Below are positions 3,174-60,400 of a DNA stretch of 64,000 bases, piece after piece. Source of the DNA: Zanthoxylum bungeanum (Eukaryota > Streptophyta > Magnoliopsida > Sapindales > Rutaceae); assembly GCA_019454045.1 (NCBI GenBank), contig SKCR01023789.1, forward strand, positions 124,001-188,000, read 5' to 3'. The first letter of the stretch is position 1, and every line of letters starts with the position of its first letter. Under the pieces are notes generated by a model, which did no database searches, was not told the DNA's origin, and worked only from the letters and a program-made list of their open reading frames with translations. The translations under genes and the position numbers were made by a program.

Positions 3174-5633
3174 TGTTCGGGTTGATGCCCAGAACGCCAA
3201 TTTCCTATTGTATTTCCTTATAAATACTATTGTAAACGTTTTATTATTAATAAAATAAGCAGTTTCTGTAATATAATATATCTCTTGATATGGTAAAAAT
3301 GTAATTGACCTTAGAATGATTAGTCATGATGCAGTTTCAAAAGTGTCGCAACTGACATTGAGTTATATCATGACGTTGTCATTCTCAGACAGTTCATGGT
3401 CAATGTTTACACTACTTGGTCAGTAAAGTAAACCCATTGAGACTGATACATATCGTATATTGGAATATTGGATTCCAATGGTTTCTCATGAACCATGAGC
3501 CTTGGAGACTCATTTAGACGTGTATATGTTTATAGCGGATAAACACTGAACGACTCACTGAAGATTCTTAATGGATGGTAAACCAATGTCAATAAGAATC
3601 TTCTCAGGTTGAGTAGCATTTGTGATTCTTCGACTTGAGATACCACTAAGGGCACATGAGACATCTTCCACATAGATGACAGTCACGTCACCGATCTATT
3701 AAGATTAGACCTCCGTCTATTCGTTGGGTGTGGACAGATCCTTAGGGTGTCATGTGTGTGTCAAGATAGGATCCGTTAGTTCTGTGTACAGTGCATAGAT
3801 AGTCCAAATATGATTAGCAATCAGATAAAAACCATGGGCTCGTGGTACACTTTAGAAATAAGTTCTAAGTGTTCTTTTAGAGATTATTAATAGAGACATC
3901 GACAGAATTATCCCTATAGAGATTTAACGTTTACATCTATATCTCTGGGATATATCCGGATAACTTGTATGATTTAGCGAGTTTATCCGTGACAGGTAGG
4001 TAAATTATGGACAAGAAATTGGATTTCGTGACGGATATACCTGAATCTAGAGAGTCTCACTAGTGAAATATACTCGTAAAGCACTAGGGCAACTTATATG
4101 AATAATACTGATTAATTATAAGTCATTTAAAGGTTAAACGAAAAATACATGCAAATGGACCTAATGATCATTTCCTAATTAATGTATATTTGTATTTAAT
4201 GAAAGATTTTATTAAATACACATTAATTAAATTTCAAATTGTGATATTTGACATATATCATAATATATATATATGTATTTGGATATTTAAAGTAAATATA
4301 ATACATATATTTAAAAATAATTATATTAAATAATTATTTAATTATTTAACTGTTAAATAATTAAAGTAATTAAAAAATAAATAACTTTAGTTATGATATT
4401 TTTAGGAGATGACTTTAGTTGCTTTATTTGACTTGTTATAAATCTTTAAATGAAGTAATGGTCATTACACAAGTTGAATTAATGAATTAATTGAAACAAA
4501 AAAAAATCTAGATATTTTATTATTTACTCTAAAATTCGGCCAAGGCTAAAATTGGGAGTATAAATTATTTTGTTTCTTTTTCATTCATATTAGGTTAAGC
4601 CACCAAATATTATAAAGTGAGTTTGAGAGAAAAACGTTTGAAAAACAAAAGAAAAGCTTGAAAAACTTGGATTTTTGCAAGTTTTTCTTAAAATTTTTCT
4701 ATTAGAAAATTATTTCTATGATACTAGGCTTTAACTTATATTACCTAGAATCTTCTCTACTCTTTCAGTTTGTAATTAGATGGTTGGAAACTTGCTTGAA
4801 AAACTTGTTTAAAGCATGAAATTAGTTCATTGGATCTCTTTTGATTATTTGATAATCACGTTGCTATTCTAGAGTTGGTAAGTCACTCATTGATGACCTA
4901 TAATTGTTCTTGAGTTGTTTTATAGTGGTGAGACTTGTTTGGTGTGGTAAAGATTGAATTAAAGTGTTGGATTTAATTAATTTGGTGTAATTTGTCAATT
5001 TGAAGACATTATAAAATTAAGGTTCATAACGCTTTCCAAATTTGGGGGTTTTCATATATGTGATTTATTATGATGTGTATAAGATGCATATTAATTTTTG
5101 GGTTGACTGGATTTGATTTTGACATGTTTTGAACAAAAATGGACCAAATAGCAAAAAATGAAAAATAGTGGACTGTTAGGCAATTTCAGACTTTTTGGGG
5201 TTTTGTTGCAATTTATTTCTGATGTGTTGGACATGTTGGAAATCATTTTAGAATTGATTTAGAATCATTTTGAGGACTAAATCGAACAAAATATAAAGTT
5301 TAGGGGTCAAACGATTATTTTCAAAAAAATATGATTTCTCGAGTTAAATTTCAGTTTTAAAGTATTGGGTAATTAAATAAATAAGTTTATTTAATTAATC
5401 TAAGAAAAATTATTGAAATCAGAAAATTTTGATTTTCCGCATTTCGCTGTATTATCGGACATTCCCCATAAAACCCCTACATAATCACATCTCGCTATTG
5501 GATATCTATACATGACTTATACGAAATACATATACATTAGCGGTATATGATACCGGTTAGTTCACCCGAACAATAAATATTCTAAAATTCAATTTCGTCT
5601 GTCATCGTGCTTCCGTCGCAATTACCCCGAACA
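3174..5633 (+). mobile_element. Long LTR, LARD-like family (copy B)
   Basis: This 2460-bp unit starts TGTTCGGG and ends CCCGAACA, an 8-bp perfect terminal inverted repeat. Internal stretches match the long LTRs at 11336 and 32608, for example the GTCACGTCACC...GATCTATT block near 3684 and the TCTGTGTACAG block near 3780. The flanks TAATT and AGTTA do not match, so I cannot call it a solo LTR with a target duplication. It may be a survivor of a recombined element. No ORF is credible. Confidence 0.65.
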
Positions 5634-50541: not shown

Positions 50542-50873
50542 TGACAAAACAAGTTCAATTGAGTTGTAATAAGTCTTGAATAACTTGGAGCAATTGGACT
50601 GGTTTTTGGCTAAGTTGGAGCATTTTCGTTAGTGCTGCTTTCGTTGCAGTGTTCGCACGTGTGGCGTTAGTGTCACGTTCTCCATTGGGTTCAAATAAAA
50701 TATTCCAGAGAGCAAACGTTCATGGTACGTTTGAGGAAATATTCAAACAAAACATTCCAGGGAGCAAGCATCCGTGGTGCGTTCCAGTAGCGCTCGAACG
50801 AGTTTTTCCAGTAAGCACGCGTTCGTGGTGCGTTCGATTAATCATTCAAACGCGACTACGATCTGAACGTGTT
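50542..50873 (+). repeat. Copia-like LTR, left part (split by a Tekay LTR)
   Basis: It begins near TGACAAAACAAGTTCAATTG and continues GTTGTAATAAGTCTTGAATA. The part beyond the Tekay insertion is 53684-54230. It contains three imperfect tandem units at 50700-50850. LTR identity is inferred from layout (promoter, pyrimidine-rich leader) and remembered similarity, so it is moderate. Confidence 0.5.
50700..50850. repeat. Three imperfect ~50-bp tandem units in the copia-like LTR
   Basis: Units start ATTCCAGAGAGCAAACGTTC, ATTCCAGGGAGCAAGCATCC and TTTCCAGTAAGCACGCGTTC, each followed by (A/G)TGGT(A/G)CGTT. Arrays of this kind in U3 can act as transcription-factor sites. Confidence 0.75.
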
Positions 50874-53683
50874 TGTAACATCCCCGATCCGGAGATGTTA
50901 CCGGCAGGGGATAGCGGTACTAACCCCATAAGCCTCTAACTTCCTGAATGTATTCTAAACTATACAAATGCAATGTCATGCATGGAAACTATAACTCAAT
51001 TTAAAATACTTTTATTTCTCATGTATGTGTACTCTAAATACTTTTTTTACAAACATTAACAAGTACTTATAAAGACTCATACTATACTAGTGCATACAAG
51101 AAACTTTTACTTTTACACTGACTGGACTCTCATGCTATAGGACTCAATGCTGGTGGACTCTTTCCCTGGTGACTGCATCAGTATCCGTCCTCCTGAGCTC
51201 ATCCTCCTGGAATTCCTGCAAAACAAATACTGCGAGTGAGGGGTTAGATCGTCGTACGATCTAAGTGAGTGGACTAAAAATTGAAAACTGATAAAAATCT
51301 TTTAGTTTTAAAATCATATTTTTTTAAATATTTTTACATAAAAACTTTATTTATGAAAACTGTTCATCTTTCTGAAATCTGTCTTTAAAACACTAGTTTC
51401 TGAAAACTCTTTACTAAAGTCTGACTTTTGAAAACTATGTACTGATGTTCTGAAAACTGGTAACTGAAAATACTCGATGCCCAGAACAACAGCTGAACTG
51501 CAGCATCTCTAAAAACTGATGGTACTAGATGCCCAGGACAACAGCTCAACTACGGCATCTCTGAGGCTGGTGGTGCCCTACGTCCAGGACAATAACTCAA
51601 CTGGCAACGTAGAGCTCTACACCTAGGACAACAGCTCAACTGGCAGTGTAGCCACCAAATAGAATTTCGGGGATCTGTCAACCCTATTCCTGCTCGAGGA
51701 TCTGAGAGCGTCCCCTCAGTCTTCCACATGTGCACATGTCTCTGAATTCGTCAATTCCACTATGTCTCAAGTTACATACTGGGGTGAGGTTTTACCTCAT
51801 GTCCCGAAAGAAAAGAACATAAACATATACTGAAAACTTATATCTCGAGCTGAAATATCTATTTCTCCATAAACTTCTTAATCATGCTGAATCATATATA
51901 ACATAAATACAAACTTGGCTAACGCCCTATTTGTTGAAAAGTAAGTCTGATATTCAGAAATACGAGATAAAAATCAAGAAAAATGGAAAGTGTCCACTCA
52001 CTGATTTAGAAACTGGCTGTATCTACTTCACGATGTCGAAGTGAGTCGCGGTTCCTGTCGATAATCTATAATCGATAAACTTTATTAGAATATAAGTTGT
52101 GGGATATGTTTCCGATCAATAAATAGAATATGCAATGCATGCATACTTGACTTTGCTGAGTTAATAACTGATAAGCGTGGTCTATGAATTTTTACGGACT
52201 GAGGTTTGAAGTTACACTAGTGCGGAAAGAGAAATTTAGATTCTACGGGTCGCTAAGAATTCACTGCTCAACACCTCACTTTGAAAATTCACTGCCACTA
52301 ATCGGGAATGAATCTGAAGCTAGAATTTTAATAGAATGGTCCTTAATGTATGTAGTTTATGATGGTTTTTACGGATCTTGATTCTGACTTCAGGGACTCA
52401 CGTTATAAGCTCAAGTTCAAGGGCTGTTCAGCAAAAACAAAACTGGGCACAGGGGCTGTAGGTTGCCCGACTTCAAAAATTCGATCTGATCTCATCTTTA
52501 GTCCAAAAATTCTAAAATTTAGATATGTTACACCTCTATGTGTCTATTTTATCCAAAATTTTACGGTTCATTAATCGGACTTATAAAACTCAAGTTACGA
52601 GCGTCCAAGCATAGGCTGTCCGAAATGGGACAGAATCGACTTCACTCTCTAACTCCCTTATCTCACCATCTTATTAGCATTCCTTATTACACTCAAAACA
52701 AGCTATTATCAAGCATAATTAGCTCACAAATACAATTCCCCAACATATCCATAAAAATCATCAAAGACTTTAATTTCTATCAATCTTCAAGTTCTCAACC
52801 CAAGCAAATTAAACTTATGTTATATCTTTTTCTTATACATGAAACACATTAATTTATTAGCCAATCATCAAAGATAACTCCCCCAATCAAGCTAATGAAA
52901 TTCGGCCCTTACTTATTCTTACACCTTAACATATTTCAACCAAAAACTATTCTAAACAACTCCAAAACAAGTATAGATGCTCAATTTTTTTGCTCAACAT
53001 CCTTAAACAACAAAGCCCCAATTTCGTAGGGTTCCTTAATGTGAAGATTCAAGTGATGAATGCATGCTTATTTGCTAAAATAAGAAGAAGAAAAATGAGG
53101 AGGAAGCTTACTTGACTAATAAAAACATGAGAACTTTTCACCATTCTTCTCAAAATTCGCTTGAGTAAGAAAAGATGGAAAACTTGTTGTGGAGTTGCTC
53201 CCCACGTTTTTTTTAGCCTTTTTGAGAGATGAGTGAATAGTATTCTATGTAAAGAAGAGAGGCTGATTTGTATGTTGTAATTGGGTGGTCCACAACTTGC
53301 CACATCACCCAAATTCTAGCAAATTCCCGAACTCACTGTAGCAGTTGCGGTAATTATAATTTTTGACCCATTTCTGGTCCATATTTGGGAAAAGTTTCAA
53401 TGCGGAAGTTGTAGCTCTCTGTCTTAGCTTTGCGGTGATATAAAATTCATAAAAATTGGAGATTTTACGAAAAAGTTAGAGCCCGATTACTAAAGACTAT
53501 TTGGAACAGTTGTAAGCTAAGTTCCGCGTCGAAATTTCAAGGGATTTACCAAATGTCCCAAATGCCATTTTTTTTGAGCACGTACTTGCTCCAACATAAT
53601 TCATATCAAGTATTATACCTTCGTACTGTAATGATCGTCAAATTATGGTAAAGTACAAGTCGCCGGGGTCACCGGATGTTACA
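50874..53683 (-). mobile_element. Tekay/Del-type gypsy LTR, minus orientation, no interior
   Basis: 2810 bp bounded in plus sense by TGTAACATCC and GGATGTTACA, a perfect 10-bp terminal inverted repeat. Its 3' half matches the plus-oriented LTR at 54900-57432. Shared stretches in LTR sense include GGGGTTAGTAC.GCTATCCCC(T/C)GC and GTCCACTCACTTAGAT, which fixes minus orientation. Flanking pentamers GTGTT and ACCTT do not match, so it is a solo-like LTR without a clear duplication. It contains a four-hairpin array (51476-51651). Confidence 0.82.
51476..51651 (-). repeat. Four-hairpin array, minus-oriented Tekay LTR
   Basis: Units at 51476-51507, 51527-51560, 51578-51612 and 51617-51651 share a core close to CAGGACAACAGCTCAACTG. 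Each is flanked by its own complementary arms: GATGC/GCATC, AGATGCC/GGCATCT, CTACGT/ACGTAG, CTACAC/GTGTAG. Units 1 and 3 add an inner CAG/CTG or CCAG/CTGG stem. Arms differ between units yet always pair. Confidence 0.85.
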
Positions 53684-54230
53684 ACCTTTTCCAATCTTTT
53701 CACTTTGAAAAAACCCTAAATCTTCACCCTACCTATAAATAGAACATGTAGCCACCATCCCCAAGTGTTGAAACATAATTCCTTTGAGCCAAAATCCTTC
53801 AAAGCTTTCAACCTTATTTGATTCCACCATTGAAGACTTCTTTCTCTTCTTGTATTATTTGTTAATGATGAGAATCCTTCTTTGATAAACCTTCAACACA
53901 ACCTAACCCAAAATTCCTTTTAAGAGTTCTCAAGGAGGAAGTTTGGTACTCGGAGTTCCGGCGCTCAGAGTTGCAGAGACAATCCGCTCAGAGACTTCAG
54001 AGGTTCTAAAGAAAACTGTGGGCTACGAGTTTGAGGAGTTCATTGAGTTCTTGCAGTCTAGAGGTACTTGAGTCGGTAGAGTCACCACCATAGGTCTTGA
54101 CCATCGCTATAAGTTTTTCTCTATGTAGTAGATTGGACAGGTAGCCGAGATACCCGGAGTGATTTTTTACTCGCATGAGTTTTCCACTTCGTCACCAAAA
54201 TTATTGTGTTGATTTTGTGTGATTGCTTTT
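53684..54230 (+). repeat. Copia-like LTR, right part
   Basis: It continues 50542-50873 after the Tekay LTR. It has a TATA box (CTATAAATAG, about 53733-53742), then leader-like sequence with repeated CTCAGAG..TT motifs (53965-54005), and ends at the next LTR start (54231). No primer site follows. Confidence 0.5.
53734..53741 (+). promoter_or_regulatory. TATA box, copia-like LTR
   Basis: TATAAATA lies within CCTACCTATAAATAGAACATG, about 490 bp before the LTR's right edge. Confidence 0.55.
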
Positions 54231-54625
54231 TGTTGGACAATTATGACCCACAACATCTCTATTTGTAAAAGATATGATGTTTTTGTACAAATTAACTATG
54301 TGACAAAGGAAATTGCTCTTTTATCATTTTATAATTGGATTACTTTGATATATATAAATGATAAAATTCCATATGATTAGTACTGATTAATAAGATATGA
54401 GACAGTATTAATCCACGAAAGGTTTAATCATTAAATATCCCTAGTCGTAGTATTATCGAGACTGGACATCGATAATGCGGAATGGACTAGTATTACACTT
54501 GTGCGCGTTATGAAAGCTTAACGACATAATTCTCATATATTTAAGTATTGGATACTTACGCAAGTGTGATATGAGGTTCTGTTAGCCGTTGGATTGGGAA
54601 CAACTTTGCTCTGGATAGACCTATC
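54231..54625 (+). repeat. LTR fragment of the same copia family as 5759-9445
   Basis: It starts TGTTGGACAATTATGACCC and follows the minus-strand LTR 7706 downward through TTTTTGTACAAATTAACTATG, ATTATCGAGACTGGACATCG and GTGTGATATGAGGTTCTGTT, ending near CTCTGGATAGACC (about 54615). The rest of the LTR is missing, and sequence of a Tekay interior follows. Confidence 0.85.
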
Positions 54626-54639
54626 AGAAACCAGCTAAT

Positions 54640-54899
54640 AAGATTTTGCTCATGTTAAGGAACCATGAGGCATAAGTGAAAGTCTATAAAGAAGAGATCT
54701 TAGAAGCAAGAGTATAAGGAATAAGTGGAACGAATAGAAGGACAATAATCACGAAGTACTCAGCAGAATTATTATAGAATAAGGACCTAAGAAGATAGAT
54801 CAAGTAACTCATAAGGATAGAAACTAGAAGATCAATAAGACCACGAGTTAGACGCCAAAGAGGATTCGAGGACGAATCCTATTTAAGGGGGGGATAATT
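54640..54899 (+). pseudogene. 3' end of Tekay/Del pol with polypurine tract
   Basis: The last readable part is GFEDESYLRGG followed by TAA, the usual C-terminal ending of Tekay/Del chromovirus pol (FEDE...GG). It is followed by the polypurine tract AAGGGGGGGATAATT (54885-54899) directly before the LTR. The preceding 230 bp are purine-rich and decayed, with no certain chromodomain. Confidence 0.7.
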
Positions 54900-55318
54900 T
54901 GTAACGACCGGTAGAAAATACTACTACCTATGACGATACTATTAACGGGACAAAGGAACGTAAAATAAATCATGTGGTGATTCAAGTACAATTATAAAAA
55001 GGCTTTGGGAATGATTGTAAGATTTCTCGAGGTCCCGAGAAGAAAACTGCACCGTATGCCCTTTCGAACTATAAATGGTATTTAGGGCATAACTTTTTCA
55101 TACAAACTCGGAATTTTATGAACTTTATATCATCGGAAATCTTAGACCGAGACCTACAACTTTCGTATTAAATATTTTTCCAAATCGGACCAAAACTAGG
55201 TTAAAAATACGAGTCAAAAGCTGAGTGAATAGTGATTTCGGGCCAAAGTGTAAGAATCTCAATATTTCTCAAAGTTTCTACACTCTTCCCTAACTTGTAA
55301 AATATCCAAAGGGTTCAC

Positions 55319-55326
55319 TATATAAA
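55319..55326 (+). promoter_or_regulatory. TATA box, plus-oriented Tekay LTR
   Basis: TATATAAA within TTCACTATATAAAGAGGC, about 420 bp into the LTR. A purine-rich leader with AAGAAGAAGAAG runs follows. Confidence 0.65.
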
Positions 55327-56530
55327 GAGGCAACTATTCCCCAATACAAAAGATAAAAACCGAATTTAGAGAGAAAGAAAGAGAGCAGACCGTGAGAGGA
55401 ATGGAGGGAAAAGAAAAGAGGAAGAAGAAGAAGAAGAAAACTGGAAGAAGAAGAAGAAGGAAAAGAGAGGGAAAAAATAAAGAGGCTTGACTTCCATGGA
55501 GGACTTGGAAACTAAAGGAAAAAGAGGAGAATGGAGGTGAGATTCCATTACCTAAATCTTGGATTTTTGGTTTTATTAATATAAAAGACTTGATTATGAT
55601 GATTAACATGTTAAGATTTTAGTTAATAATGATTTTGAAATGATTGGGTATTATCTTAAGTGTTTTAGATAATTTTGGGTTAAATTTCCAAGTTTGTTAA
55701 TGTGATAAGAATGATGAGGATTGATGAGTGTTGATAATTATAAGTGGGTTGAAGTGGTAGATTGAATAATATATTTGTTTAGAAGTGTGTTAGGGATGAG
55801 AAGATAGTTTTGGGTTTTGTAAATTTTGGGGTTGGGTTTGTCTTCAGCAGGGCAGAAATCTGCCCAGGAAGACGACCCAGCGTCGCGACGCGCAACCTGT
55901 GCCGCGTCGCGACGCTGAAGCCAGAAACCGAAAAATTTGTTTCTCGCATGATTCAAAACCAGAACTTTACCAGACCAGTTCTAGACCCCCAGTATCACCC
56001 TATCACGAGAGAATTCACCTTTTAGGAACTTGTATAAATCATATACACCTTCCATAATCAAATTATGACTATTATAAGTCTTAAGTAAATCCATAAAAAA
56101 GATATTCCACTAGATCGATTCTAATCAATTTCCGATCATAGATTATTCGCAGGAATTGTAGTGTCATTTGATCAAGGAATCCGGTGCCAGCTAAGTTCAG
56201 AACTGTGAGGGGACATATCTCTTTTCTTGATTTTTATATTGTAATTTTATCATACTTATATTTTACGCTTTAGGGCGTTAGAAACTTTTATTCTCAGATA
56301 TTATACTTTTCTTTTCAGTTATTATTATATATAGTTTTTATTTAAGAAATGAAATGATTTTGCAGAGATCCGTATATACAGATTTAAACTTTAAAGTATG
56401 ATTTTATGTTTTCGGGGCATGAGGTAAAACCTCACCACAGTATGTAACTTCAGACACAGTTGGAATTGACAGATATAGAGAGCTTGTGCACATGTTGAGG
56501 ACTGAGGGGACGCTTTCAGATCCTCCAGTT

Positions 56531-56783
56531 GGGTTAGGGGGACGGCGATACGTAACGCCCCTAGACCCTAGTTTGAGCTTGGGTGGTAGCATAGATCCGC
56601 ACCCCCAGCTCCAGTTTGTGGCTTGGGGGACGGCGATACGTAACGCCCCAAGACCACCAGATTATGAGACAGTAGTGGCATGCTTTGGGGGACGGCGACA
56701 CGTAACGCCCCAAAGTCATGGATTTGCATTGCTGGCTCCAGTTAGGCGTATGGGGGACGGTGATACGTAACGCCCTCATACGT
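56531..56783 (+). repeat. Four-hairpin array, plus-oriented Tekay LTR
   Basis: Four copies of the 17-base core GACGGCGATACGTAACG (one or no changes) at 56541, 56629, 56691 and about 56755. Each is enclosed by different complementary arms: GGGTTAGGGG/CCCCTAGACCC, GTGGCTTGGGG/CCCCAAGACCAC, CATGCTTTGGGG/CCCCAAAGTCATG, and GGCGTATGGGG/CCCTCATACGTCC. In every unit the right arm has one unpaired base at the same place. The core itself is near-palindromic around TACGTA. Confidence 0.9.
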
Positions 56784-57432
56784 CCAGGTTTTCAGACTAA
56801 GAAATAGATTTCAGAAAAGTTTTCGGTTTTCAGACTTTCAGTATACAGTTTTCTTTTCAGATTTTCAGTATAAGGTTTTCAGAGTTTTAGAATCCAGATT
56901 TTTAGCAAATAGTTTTCAGAAACCAGATTTTCAGAAATAAATTTCAAAAGAAATAGAGTTTTTATAAAAGATATTTCTAAAAGTATGATTTTAAAGTTAA
57001 AAATACTTTTACTTCAGTTTTCAGTTTTAGTCCACTCACTTAGATTATATAGCAATCTAACCCCCCACCAGTTTTTAGTTGTTTGTAGGGATTCCAGGAG
57101 GACAAGCTCGGGAGGATGGATACTGATGCAGTCGCCAAGGATGGAGTCCACCAGTACATGAGTCACAAGCATAAGGGTCCACTTCAAAGTCAAAGGGTTT
57201 ATATGCATTTCCCGATGTGGTAGTCATTTTAAGTGTCTGTTAAAGTATTGTAAAAAAGAATCATTCATGAGTATGCATTTATAAGTAATAAGTATTATAT
57301 ATTGATTTAGTTAAAGTCTATATGCTTGACACTGCATAAGAATAGTTTGTAATACAGTCAGAGAGTCAGAGGCTTATGGGGTTAGTACAGCTATCCCCTG
57401 CTGGTAACATCTCCCAGATCGGGGATGTTACA

Positions 57433-60400
57433 CATTCTCTCACGAAAACAGAGATTGGGAGATTACGAGACAGTAGCAGTGACAGAAGAATGTAGCGCCA
57501 TCATTCAGAGGAAACTTCCCCTGAAATTGAAAGATCCTGGCAGTTTCACTGTCCCATGCACCATTGGAGAACATTATATCGGTAAGGCTTTATGTGATTT
57601 AGGTACAAGTGTTAATTTGATGCATTTTTCTATTTACAGGAAATTGTAAATTGGAAAAGTAATGCCTACCTCAATCTCTTTGCAACTTGCTGATAGAACG
57701 CTCGCACTTCCGAGAGGAGTGGTTGAAGATGTGTTGGTCAAAGTTGATAAACTCATTCTCCCAGCAGATTTCATCATCCTTGATATGGAAGAAGACAAAG
57801 ATGTTTTTATCATTCTTGGGAGACCATTCTTGGCTACAGGTAGAACTGTGATTGATGTGCAAAAAAGAGAACTAACCATGAAAGTTCAGGACCAAGAAAT
57901 TACCTTAATATTTTCAAAACCATGAAATTTCCGAGTGATGAAAATGAAGAGGAATGTTTCAGAATTGATGTTGTTGATGGCATCATCCAAGATACTGATA
58001 CAATTCCCACAGAAAAACTTGAAGATTGCATCACCAACATGACTGATAGCAAGATAGATGCTGAAATTCTGGAATGTATCAACTATCTGGACAAGCTGTT
58101 CCGCTTCAAATCAGAACCACAAGTCGAAAGCCTGGAACTCCCTAAGAAAGATCGAATCAAGCCCTCAATTGAAGAACCACCGCAGTTGGAGTTGAAGTTA
58201 CTTCCGAACCATCTCAGGTATGCATTCTTGGAAACTCTTCTGAATTACATATAATTATTTATTCTTCGTTAATATTGGAACAGGAAGAAAAATTACTGAG
58301 AGTGTTAGGAGAACACAAGAGAGCCATTGGCTGGACTATAGCAGACATCCGATGTATTTATCTATCATTTTACATGCACAAGATTCTGATAAACGATGAG
58401 TACAAACCCACAGTGGAACATCAATGAAGACTCAATCCAATCATGAAGGAAGTCGTGAAGAAAGAAATTATCAAATGGTTAGATGCTGACATCATTTACT
58501 CCATCTCAGACAGCAGTTGGGTGAGTCCTGTACAGTGTGTGTCGAAGAAAGGAGGAATTACTGTAGTCACAAATAAAAAGAATGAACTGATTCCAACAAG
58601 AACAGTGACTGGATGAAGTGTATGCATGGACTACTAGAAGCTGAACAAAGCAATAATGAAGGACCATTTTCCACTGCCATTCATTGACCAGATGCTGGAC
58701 AGATTAGCGGGACATTAGTTATATTACTTTTTGGATGGATACTCAGGGTACAATCAGATTGCCATAGCCCTAGAAGACCAGAAGAAAACCATATTTACAT
58801 GTCCCTATGGAACTTTTGCTTTCCACAGGATGCCGTTTAGACTATGTAATGCCCCTGCCACATTTCAGCGTTGCATGATGGCTATCTTTTCAGACATGCT
58901 TGAGGAGAGTATGGAGGTATTTATGGATGGATTTTCTATGTTTGGAGACTCTTTCAACCATTGCTTGCAAAATCTGGATAGGTGTTATAAAGGTGTGAAG
59001 ATACAAACCTGATACTCAACTGAGAGAAATGCCATTTCAAGGTGCAGGAAGGCATTTTTCTTGGACATCGGATTTCACAAAAGGGAATCGAGGTAGACAA
59101 AGCAAAGATTGAAACAATTGAAAAATTACCTTCACCAACATCTATCAAAGGTATTCGGAGCTTTCTCGGACATGTAGGTTTTTACAGGAGATTTATCAAA
59201 GACTTTTCCAAGATTGCTAAACCTCTGTGCAATTTTTTAGAGAAAGACGTGTCTTTCAACTTCACCAAAGAATTTCAGGAAGCTTTTGAGAATTCGAAAC
59301 ATAAGCTTATTTTTTCTCCCATCATTGTAGCACCAGACTGGACCCATCCATTTGAGGTAATGTGCGATGCAAGTGATTTTGCTATAGGTGTAGTTTTTGG
59401 GACAACACAAAGCAAAGATTTTCCATGCCATTTACTACTCTAGCAGAACTCTGAATGATGCTAAACTCAACTACACAACCACTGAAAAGAAGTTTCTTGC
59501 AATTGTGTTTACTTTTGACAAATTCCACTCTTATCTACAGGGTCCCAAAGTGGTGGTCTACACATATCATTCAGCAATCAAATATCTGATCGTGAAGAAA
59601 GATGCCAAACCCATATTGATCAGTTGGATACTTTTTCTCCAAGAATTCGATGTGGAGATTCAAGACATGAAATGGACAGAAAATCAAGTGGTAGATCATT
59701 TATCGAGTCTCGAAAATAGTGAAACAGTTGGCAAAGAAATGACAATCAAAGAAACTTTTCTAGATGAACAGTTGTTTGCCATGAAACAGCATGATGTCCC
59801 TTGGAATACTGACTATGTCAACTACATAGTGTTAGGAAAATGACCGTTGGAATGGATAACTCAACAACGGAAGAAATTCTTCAAAGAAGTCAAGCATTAT
59901 GTCTGGGATGAGCCGTACCTGTTCAAACGCTGTGCTGATCAATTACTGAGACGGTGTGTTCCACAGAAGGAGGTCAATAGTGTTTTGCAACACTGTCATT
60001 CCTCACCATATGGCAGACACTTCAACGAGAATAAAACTGCAGTAAAAGTCATACAATCAGATTTGTTCTGGCCCACTCTTTTTAAAGATGCTTATCTATT
60101 TGCTCTTCAATGTGACAAGTACCAGAAAACGGGGAATATTTCAAGGAGAAATGAAGGACCGTTACAAAACATTCTGGAAGTGGAGATATTTGATGTATGA
60201 GGTATTGATTTTATGGGACCCTTTGTTCCATAATTCGGAAACATGTACATACTGGTTGCTGTAGACTATGTCTCCAAATGGGTTGAAACAATTACATTGT
60301 CATCCAATGATTCAAAAGTGGTGATTAAATTCCTTAAAAAGAATATTTTCACTCGCTTCGGAATACATCAGGTAATTATCAGTGATGGTGGTACACATTT

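Follow-up and report, generated by a model that had tools for sequence, protein, structure and literature searches.

A long terminal repeat (LTR1) in the window, which is the whole 64-kb stretch of Zanthoxylum bungeanum DNA analysed here, contains a row of five hairpins whose arms differ from unit to unit while remaining complementary within each unit; four of them are built around one 17-base core (type I), and in a sister repeat, LTR2, the same slot is occupied by a second row with an unrelated loop (type II). The rows probably represent a platform of RNA hairpins, selected in the active lineages of the element and recognised through the loops, and their matched stems suggest an undescribed RNA signal that is needed for the copying of the element.

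The core GACGGCGATACGTAACG occurs four times in LTR1 (Table 1), twice exactly and twice with one mismatch, against a shuffle expectation of 0.01. The cognate combination of left and right arms pairs better than all the 23 alternative permutations, and folding of the entire 321 nt of the row gave a z-score of -4.26. The initial annotation had described one 17-base core in four copies, each held by different complementary arms, and this is borne out by the core search, the folding scores and the arm permutations; its number of hairpins had to be corrected, as a fifth unit, u0, precedes the others, having lost most of the loop and being closed by GACG. A single unpaired base had been placed at the same point of every stem: every unit does have it in the 3′ arm, though at a variable distance from the loop, 7-8 pairs in u1-u3 and 10 pairs in u4 (read by hand). 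The stretch of u4 written as CCCTCATACG has no inner bulge and pairs as GGGGG/CCCTC with one G.T pair.

The arms had also been said to change together, which holds for part of the stem. On a MAFFT alignment of the type I array, where u4 is out of register, 35 of 39 cells are paired; four of the ten counted pairs change on both sides, a value equalled by 9 of 500 shuffles, whereas three are invariant and, in GGGG/CCCC, the fourth pair shows no variation other than one G.T. The covariation is located in the outer pairs. The pair adjoining GGGG/CCCC is G-C in u0, A-T in u1 and T-A in u2, and u2 and u3 differ by a matched change of one base in length (CTT/AAG versus CTTT/AAAG). A consensus row from 30 loci of the same genome comprises five positions, and the arms are specific to each of them (Table 1); these loci gave 100 type I matches, and 96 units were obtained after leaving out four antisense matches of the same sites. 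The u0 pattern matches 70 of 122 sequences, seven of the 70 being doubtful by length; across the LTR types its inner pairs are G-C,A-T or A-T,G-C or G-C,G-C or G.T,G-C, and the commonest form, found in 22 of the 70 matches, has the G.T pair.

When the 64 kb were scanned for hairpins, separated by no more than 400 nt, that have similar loops but 6-bp arms of different sequence, seven unit pairs were found, three in the LTR1 row, three in LTR2 and one in A+T-rich DNA, and a mirror-repeat control of the same scan gave none; once the limit on distance is lifted, the scan loses its discrimination (117 pairs versus 152 in the mirror control). The empty mirror control at this distance and the shuffles speak against chance repeats or low complexity as the source of the row. 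A coding role was rejected as well: an open frame extends over 56423-56767, but the spacings of 88, 62 and 65 place the loops in different frames.

Table 1. Features of the two LTRs in the window, with folding z-scores of single hairpins and the arms of the consensus row from 30 loci.
Feature	Position	Strand	Sequence or composition	Core	Folding z	Consensus (30 loci)
Purine tract, directly before LTR1	54885-54893		AAGGGGGGG
LTR1, 3′ LTR of chromovirus-like element	54900..57432	+	TGTAACGACC...GATGTTACA
Promoter-like (TATA-like) block	55316..55341	+	CACTATATAAAGAGGCAACTATTCCC
Conserved flank, itself a small hairpin, used as anchor	56421..56434	+	GAGGTAAAACCTCA
u0	56497..56525	+	GAGGACTGAGGG-GACG-CTTTCAGATCCTC, one bulged A in 3′ arm		-2.61	AGGACTGGGGG/CCCCCAG-A-TCCT
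u1	56531..56568	+	GGGTTAGGGG / CCCCTAGACCC	56541-56557	-2.87	GGGCTAGGGG/CCCCTAG-A-CCC
u2	56618..56657	+	GTGGCTTGGGG / CCCCAAGACCAC	56629-56645	-3.15	GTGGCTTGGGG/CCCCAAG-A-CCAC
u3	56679..56720	+	CATGCTTTGGGG / CCCCAAAGTCATG	56691-56707	-3.27	CATGCTTTGGGG/CCCCAAAG-T-CATG
u4	56745..56785	+	GGCGTATGGGG(G) / CCCTCATACGTCC, one G.T pair	56756-56772	-4.00	GCGTATGGGGG/CCCCCATACG-T-C
LTR2, sister LTR, opposite orientation	50874..53683	-	same flanks, different hairpin array in same slot
u0 of LTR2	51702..51719	-	CTGAGGG-GACG-CTCTCAG
Type II array of LTR2	51475..51651	-	units 51651-51617, 51612-51578, 51560-51527, 51508-51475

The element to which LTR1 belongs has lost its interior in the window. The LTR start was taken as 54902 in the calculations, which leaves distances to the LTR end unaffected; the rows are internal to the LTR, most of them 600-940 nt upstream of its end, with one type II row at 1205-1328. 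A relative with type I rows, on contig C97, has type I units at 127,018 and 135,111 and a primer site at 127,859, and between the two units it contains an integrase piece, a chromodomain-like piece, an SH3_Tf2-1 match and a purine tract followed by TGTAACGACC. SH3_Tf2-1 scored 43.6 against a cut-off of 30, and Chromo PF00385 (25.0 bits, E 1.8e-5) and rve (31.4) fell just below their cut-offs of 25.1 and 32.6; order and spacing suggest that these pieces form one element. A tRNA-Met primer site behind the 5′ LTR, a mark of plant chromoviruses such as Tekay, is present: the combination ATGTTACA + TGGTATCAGAGC is found at 4661 exact places in the genome. That the element is chromovirus-like is well supported, and its assignment to Tekay, already proposed in the initial annotation, is likely from the length and form of the LTR and fits both the long LTRs and the chromovirus-like domains of the relative.

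A search of Rfam 15 gave no match in positions 50800-57500 of the window at E up to 1; in five loci it gave four weak matches, all under the gathering score, with no hammerhead and no other family. LTR1 contains two further conspicuous regions. One, at 55802-55981, is a very stable hairpin region (z -5.2 and -5.1 in the sense direction, -8.1 and -3.2 on the other strand) and includes a palindrome in two copies, GCGTCGCGACGC and GGGCAGAAATCTGCCC; the other, at 56786-56990, directly after the row, has many TTTTCAG repeats, which are present in both LTRs and in many relatives and resemble plant 3′ splice sites or a site for a pyrimidine-tract protein.

LTR2 can be aligned with LTR1 on both sides of the slot, at 85% over the 130 bases before the row and 74% over the 584 after it, while the row itself is unalignable. 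Its loop, AGTTGAG......TCCT, is unrelated to the type I loop, and its arms are CTACAC/GTGTAG, CTACGT/ACGTAG, AGATGC/GCATCT and AGATGC/GCATCG. Of the 24 stem cells 23 are paired, the exception being an uncompensated A.G in the fourth unit (B4), and sliding the partners destroys the pairing; five of the six stem pairs change on both sides, which is reached by 9 of 500 shuffles, and neither the number of paired cells nor the covariation score is reached by any of the 500. Two of the five compensated pairs are transversions (C-G/A-T and G-C/T-A). The cognate pairing of the arms ties for first of 24 in a ten-base test and ranks 8th in a fourteen-base test, because units 1 and 2 have arms that can likewise pair with one another. 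As a whole, the LTR2 row folds no better than shuffles (z -0.05), and the same was found for the type II row of another LTR, L083 (whole-row z -1.49); unit B1 of LTR2, folded alone, does not form the drawn hairpin. The complementary sequences GGTGG/CCACC bracket units 1 and 2 of type II, at 51569-51656 on the minus strand of the window and at 1666-1753 of L083, so that a three-way junction may form.

In the genome, which comprises 3,956,113,105 bases, the type I core, taken as GGGGACGGCGATACGTAACGCCCC, is present, with up to two mismatches, 23,753 + 23,986 = 47,739 times, and its reversed control is absent. From 1350 exact places of the flank motif 90 LTRs were taken, one of which was too short; the slot of the remaining 89, chosen by the flank only, holds type II in 69, type III in seven, type I in six and other sequences in seven. 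Twelve LTRs chosen by the LTR end plus primer site gave seven type I, two type II and three other, so that the flank anchor and the primer-site anchor sample different subfamilies. In type III the slot is filled by a unit of 18 bases, GGGCGGAGATGCGCCTAC, repeated in tandem (L072, L073, L086 and L098 are among the carriers), which could possibly form a short GGCG/CGCC hairpin. In one LTR, L090, an LTR2-like start is mixed with type I units, which by eye is a recombinant row.

The collected type II units numbered 281, the commonest loop middles being CTGTTG (59), TTATGG (48) and TCGTTT (37). A rule that considers the left arm only, excluding arms that lack a terminal CC or that end in TGCC, dropped 143, and the 138 retained, minus 13 duplicates, left 125 distinct units. 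In pairs 3-6 of these units, 426 of 500 cells are Watson-Crick, compared with a mean of 293.8 and a maximum of 332 in 2000 arm shuffles and with 174, 78, 12 and 136 after sliding; as type II units share ancestry, the shuffle counts overstate the independence of events. Pairs 3, 4 and 5 are mainly of two Watson-Crick types each (C-G/T-A, G-C/A-T and C-G/T-A, respectively), and five fully paired combinations of them are each seen at least six times, while one A.C pair recurs in six units. Two to four arm types are present in 27 of the 44 LTRs having a fully paired unit of the tested class. The first unit after TGGTGG, which is orthologous among LTRs (n=46), reads CTACAC(TG)CC/GGGTGTAG in 13 cases, CTATGTCC/GGACATAG in four and CTACACCC/GGGTGTAG in four; other forms also occur, some of them unpaired. 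Kissing via a palindromic loop, suggested by TACGTA in type I, was discarded as a general feature, since by eye two of these three type II loop middles have no palindrome.

It may be asked whether such rows are a residue of tandem duplication or slippage, their palindromes being chance products without meaning. The copies of a given unit indeed decay uncompensated, as would be expected of such a residue; however, the mirror control within 400 nt is empty, the 2000 arm shuffles fall short of the data, and duplication, which copies arms, would not by itself produce five arm types with one loop, all of which makes this origin very improbable.

Sequences from other plants were also considered. Eighteen genome-contig loci match the primer-site pattern, and eight of them (L013, L014, L017, L020, L022, L023, L026 and L028) were judged from their letters to be plant LTRs; these plant-like loci sit in contigs titled bacterial, an apparent contamination of public bacterial assemblies. 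L017, L020, L022 and L023 are practically identical (99.8-100%), L014 contains no more than 218 nt of LTR, and the five were counted as one family. L013, which encodes zinc knuckles, a protease (RVP_2) and RVT_1, has two tandem hairpins, and all four substitutions between them make up two compensated pairs, a result that, with two sequences only, is equalled by 128 of 500 shuffles. Between L017 and L028, LTR copies that are 81.5% alike, a hairpin picked by eye keeps 12 of 12 pairs through three double changes and one change from A-T to G.T; 925 of 200,000 random placements show as much compensation. A scan of the plant LTR loci for rows found one in L013 only and none in L026 or in the L014/L017/L028 family, the four matches each in L014 and L022 being A+T repeats; the sole tandem repeat of the L017/L028 family, ACCCTAAAATGAGGT versus ACCTTAAAATAAGGT, is by eye uncompensated. 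L026 has one GACG-closed hairpin, GTAGGG-GACG-CCCTAC, in surroundings that fold no better than shuffles (z -0.59). LTR2, L013 and L026 have a single GGGGACG motif each, 710-1003 nt upstream of the LTR end; LTR1 has five, and two more are found elsewhere in the window, while the L017/L028 family has GGGGGCG instead.

A protein search with the spurious frame of the row retrieved 13 short proteins (E up to 10; six below 1e-5), which are LTR copies. In one of these spurious open reading frames, P0002, the fourth hairpin has CAY on the left and TGG on the right where u4 of the window has CGT and CGT, a change from G-C to A-T in which both bases are fixed by the codons (read by hand). The codon-level test on the protein-derived arms is weak, 891 of 20,000 permutations reaching its value, and three of eight units pair below the foreign-arm average on both sides and a fourth on one side. 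The protein search with the LTR2 frame gave no match, part of the anchor was found in none of the four contaminated assemblies in which it was sought, and the flank pattern had no match in genome contigs; searches of viral contigs gave no relatives, five and six stretches and L030 being judged chance matches. Taken together, these observations support the statement of the initial annotation that pairing is maintained; they show it between the units of one LTR, between the LTR types of one genome and in the LTRs of other plants, and hence as a feature of the element rather than of a single locus.

The individual copies behave differently from the lineages. Across the 96 type I units, 1052 cells contain 131 one-sided changes (53 G.T and 39 A.C) and eight two-sided changes, three of them still paired, where 4.9 are expected if the sides are independent; coupled change of both arms was thus not clearly found in these chromosomal copies, and inserted copies decay without clear coupling of the arms. 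Furthermore, three of the 82 assignable type I units (14 were ambiguous) are chimeras joined in the loop (L051, L060 and L062), and they are unpaired. The decay pattern and the unpaired chimeras indicate that mutation alone does not keep the pairing; since copies of one position decay uncoupled while lineages differ in a matched way, we infer that selection operates as long as the element is active. Drift of the arms without compensating changes in other copies had been named as a sign of coincidental pairing: such drift is seen among the copies of one unit position, whereas the parent lineages differ instead by compensated changes.

These data also bear on template switching, during DNA replication or reverse transcription, by which one arm would be copied from the other and the pairing kept without selection. 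Hairpin stems are known to arise and to be mended through this process (PMC8794818), it would easily explain the matched one-base length change of u2 and u3 by one copying event, and some compensated pairs are transversions (two of five in the LTR2 array, and A-T versus T-A in u1 and u2). The near-independence of arm changes in chromosomal copies and the persistence of unpaired chimeric hairpins are nevertheless contrary to it, as are the double transitions, expected via a G.U step, which are found in 3/3 variable type II pairs, 2/2 in L013 and 3/3 in L017/L028; for one-step changes, 61.0% is given for the data of PMC8794818 in the same part of that paper. Template switching is therefore an unlikely source of the pairing, although switching by reverse transcriptase during transposition is possible.

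In 7 of 39 anchored LTRs, a count that includes LTR1, the source of the pattern, the anchor is preceded at about 1.0-1.5 kb by a TATA-like block, with none in the reversed control, and AATAAA follows the anchor by 600-1000 nt in 22 of 37 LTRs, at a chance rate that is sizeable in such A+T-rich DNA; placed between these two signals, the slot is probably within the transcript. The same layout is relevant to a repeated enhancer, as in the Tnt1 LTR, in which the loops would be DNA-binding sites (the type I core has ACGT) duplicated for transcription. Tandem repeats able to regulate transcription are known in LTRs, as stated in the accessible part of PMC3601003; here, however, the slot is more than 1 kb downstream of the TATA-like block where the block was found, and the matched arms and the type II loops devoid of ACGT are left unexplained, so that an enhancer is a very doubtful explanation.

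The departures from pairing have no clear strand bias, G.T being 53 versus 39 A.C in type I and 26 versus 22 in type II (pairs 3-6), and sense RNA is therefore not firmly favoured over antisense RNA or DNA; RNA is favoured over DNA only because of the loop size and of the commonest u0 form with its G.T pair. Cruciform DNA, in which the LTR would extrude hairpins recognised by an integrase, a recombination protein or a chromatin protein, is suited by Watson-Crick covariation as well as RNA is, and agrees with the lack of strand bias. Loops of 16-17 nt are unfavourable for extrusion, though, and the commonest u0 form would carry a mismatch in DNA, which renders a cruciform improbable. Among the three mechanisms that the initial annotation had put forward, RNA structure fits best, copying on chromosomal copies is disfavoured by their decay and by the unpaired chimeras, and cruciform DNA keeps a small probability.

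If the slot is transcribed, its hairpins could alternatively feed or dodge plant silencing, the LTR RNA being diced to small RNAs or blocking dicing. This would not explain the conservation of the loops, and arms of 6-12 bp are short for dicing. In the accessible part of a maize study (PMC10760457), structured regions of transposable elements have more small RNAs and CHH methylation, which would favour a role of this kind, but Ty3 elements are described there as being without an obvious peak of structure. A link with silencing is accordingly given very little credence.

The reading that we favour, an RNA hairpin platform, can be formulated as follows. The long chromovirus-like (Tekay-like) LTR has, some 600-1000 nt upstream of its end, a slot occupied by the row, within which the loop is constant and the stem would need only to pair; the LTR transcript would fold into this row of hairpins, and a protein would read the loops, which the stems would merely present. 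Selection would act during the active phase of the elements, after which the inserted copies would decay neutrally, and tandem duplication together with recombination would rebuild the rows, one loop family replacing another while the hairpin architecture stays. As to the ligand, Gag of the element itself is the leading candidate, proposed with considerable doubt, and the row would then resemble a packaging or dimerisation signal; a host RNA-binding protein comes next. A more speculative reading, less likely than not, is that Tekay LTRs possess an exchangeable hairpin slot, in which loop families I, II and III swap and the architecture is kept, as if in the lineages of the element the loop and its ligand (Gag or a host factor) evolved together or in conflict.

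Plant LTR retrotransposons make up much of large plant genomes, and, to our knowledge, their cis-acting RNA signals are hardly known. The rows provide a concrete and testable candidate for such a signal, one that has a defined motif and position in the element and is present in thousands of copies in a genome. They are also a test case for selection versus template switching, as the paired arms of the lineages can be compared directly with the neutral decay of dead copies. Binding of Gag by the loops, if it occurs, would explain how such elements select their own RNA.

The initial annotation knew of no earlier account of such arrays in Tekay LTRs, and, in agreement, no description of rows of covarying hairpins in plant LTRs was found in searches of open-licence PMC papers, where the letters of the core match no paper; the accessible parts of PMC6911290 and PMC10578108 are likewise without them. 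In maize, according to the accessible part of PMC10760457, hairpins are concentrated in Copia LTRs, with no obvious peak in Ty3 elements. Plant retrozymes are an example of a functional RNA structure, the hammerhead ribozyme, in a plant LTR-type element (PMC4918200, accessible part), whereas the present loci have no hammerhead or other Rfam family at gathering score. Stem-loops of the long R regions of retroviruses are linked to residual sequence conservation in the accessible part of PMC3601003, which names neither tandem rows with covarying arms nor a plant Tekay model. Hairpins formed by template switching share with the present ones matched multi-base changes in both arms, as reported in the accessible part of PMC8794818, but the genomic copies analysed here are without clear coupling of the arms.

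The Psi region of murine leukaemia virus belongs to the leader, outside the LTR, and, to judge from the title of a 1992 paper by Konings, a GACG motif is reportedly common to hairpins of the murine leukaemia virus type. A hairpin closed by a GACG loop, as in the packaging signal of this virus, is present in u0 of LTR1, in u0 of LTR2 and in L026; in u1-u4, by contrast, GACG only begins a larger loop, and the array loops, of 16-17 nt, are not tetraloops. The viral pair of GACG hairpins, together with the tandem hairpins SL-C/SL-D (PMC7599994), is the closest counterpart of the rows; the pair is part of the Psi region. These viral structures, too, are RNA hairpins placed side by side in an LTR element's leader, whereas the hairpins described here are arranged in rows of mostly 3-7 inside the LTR.
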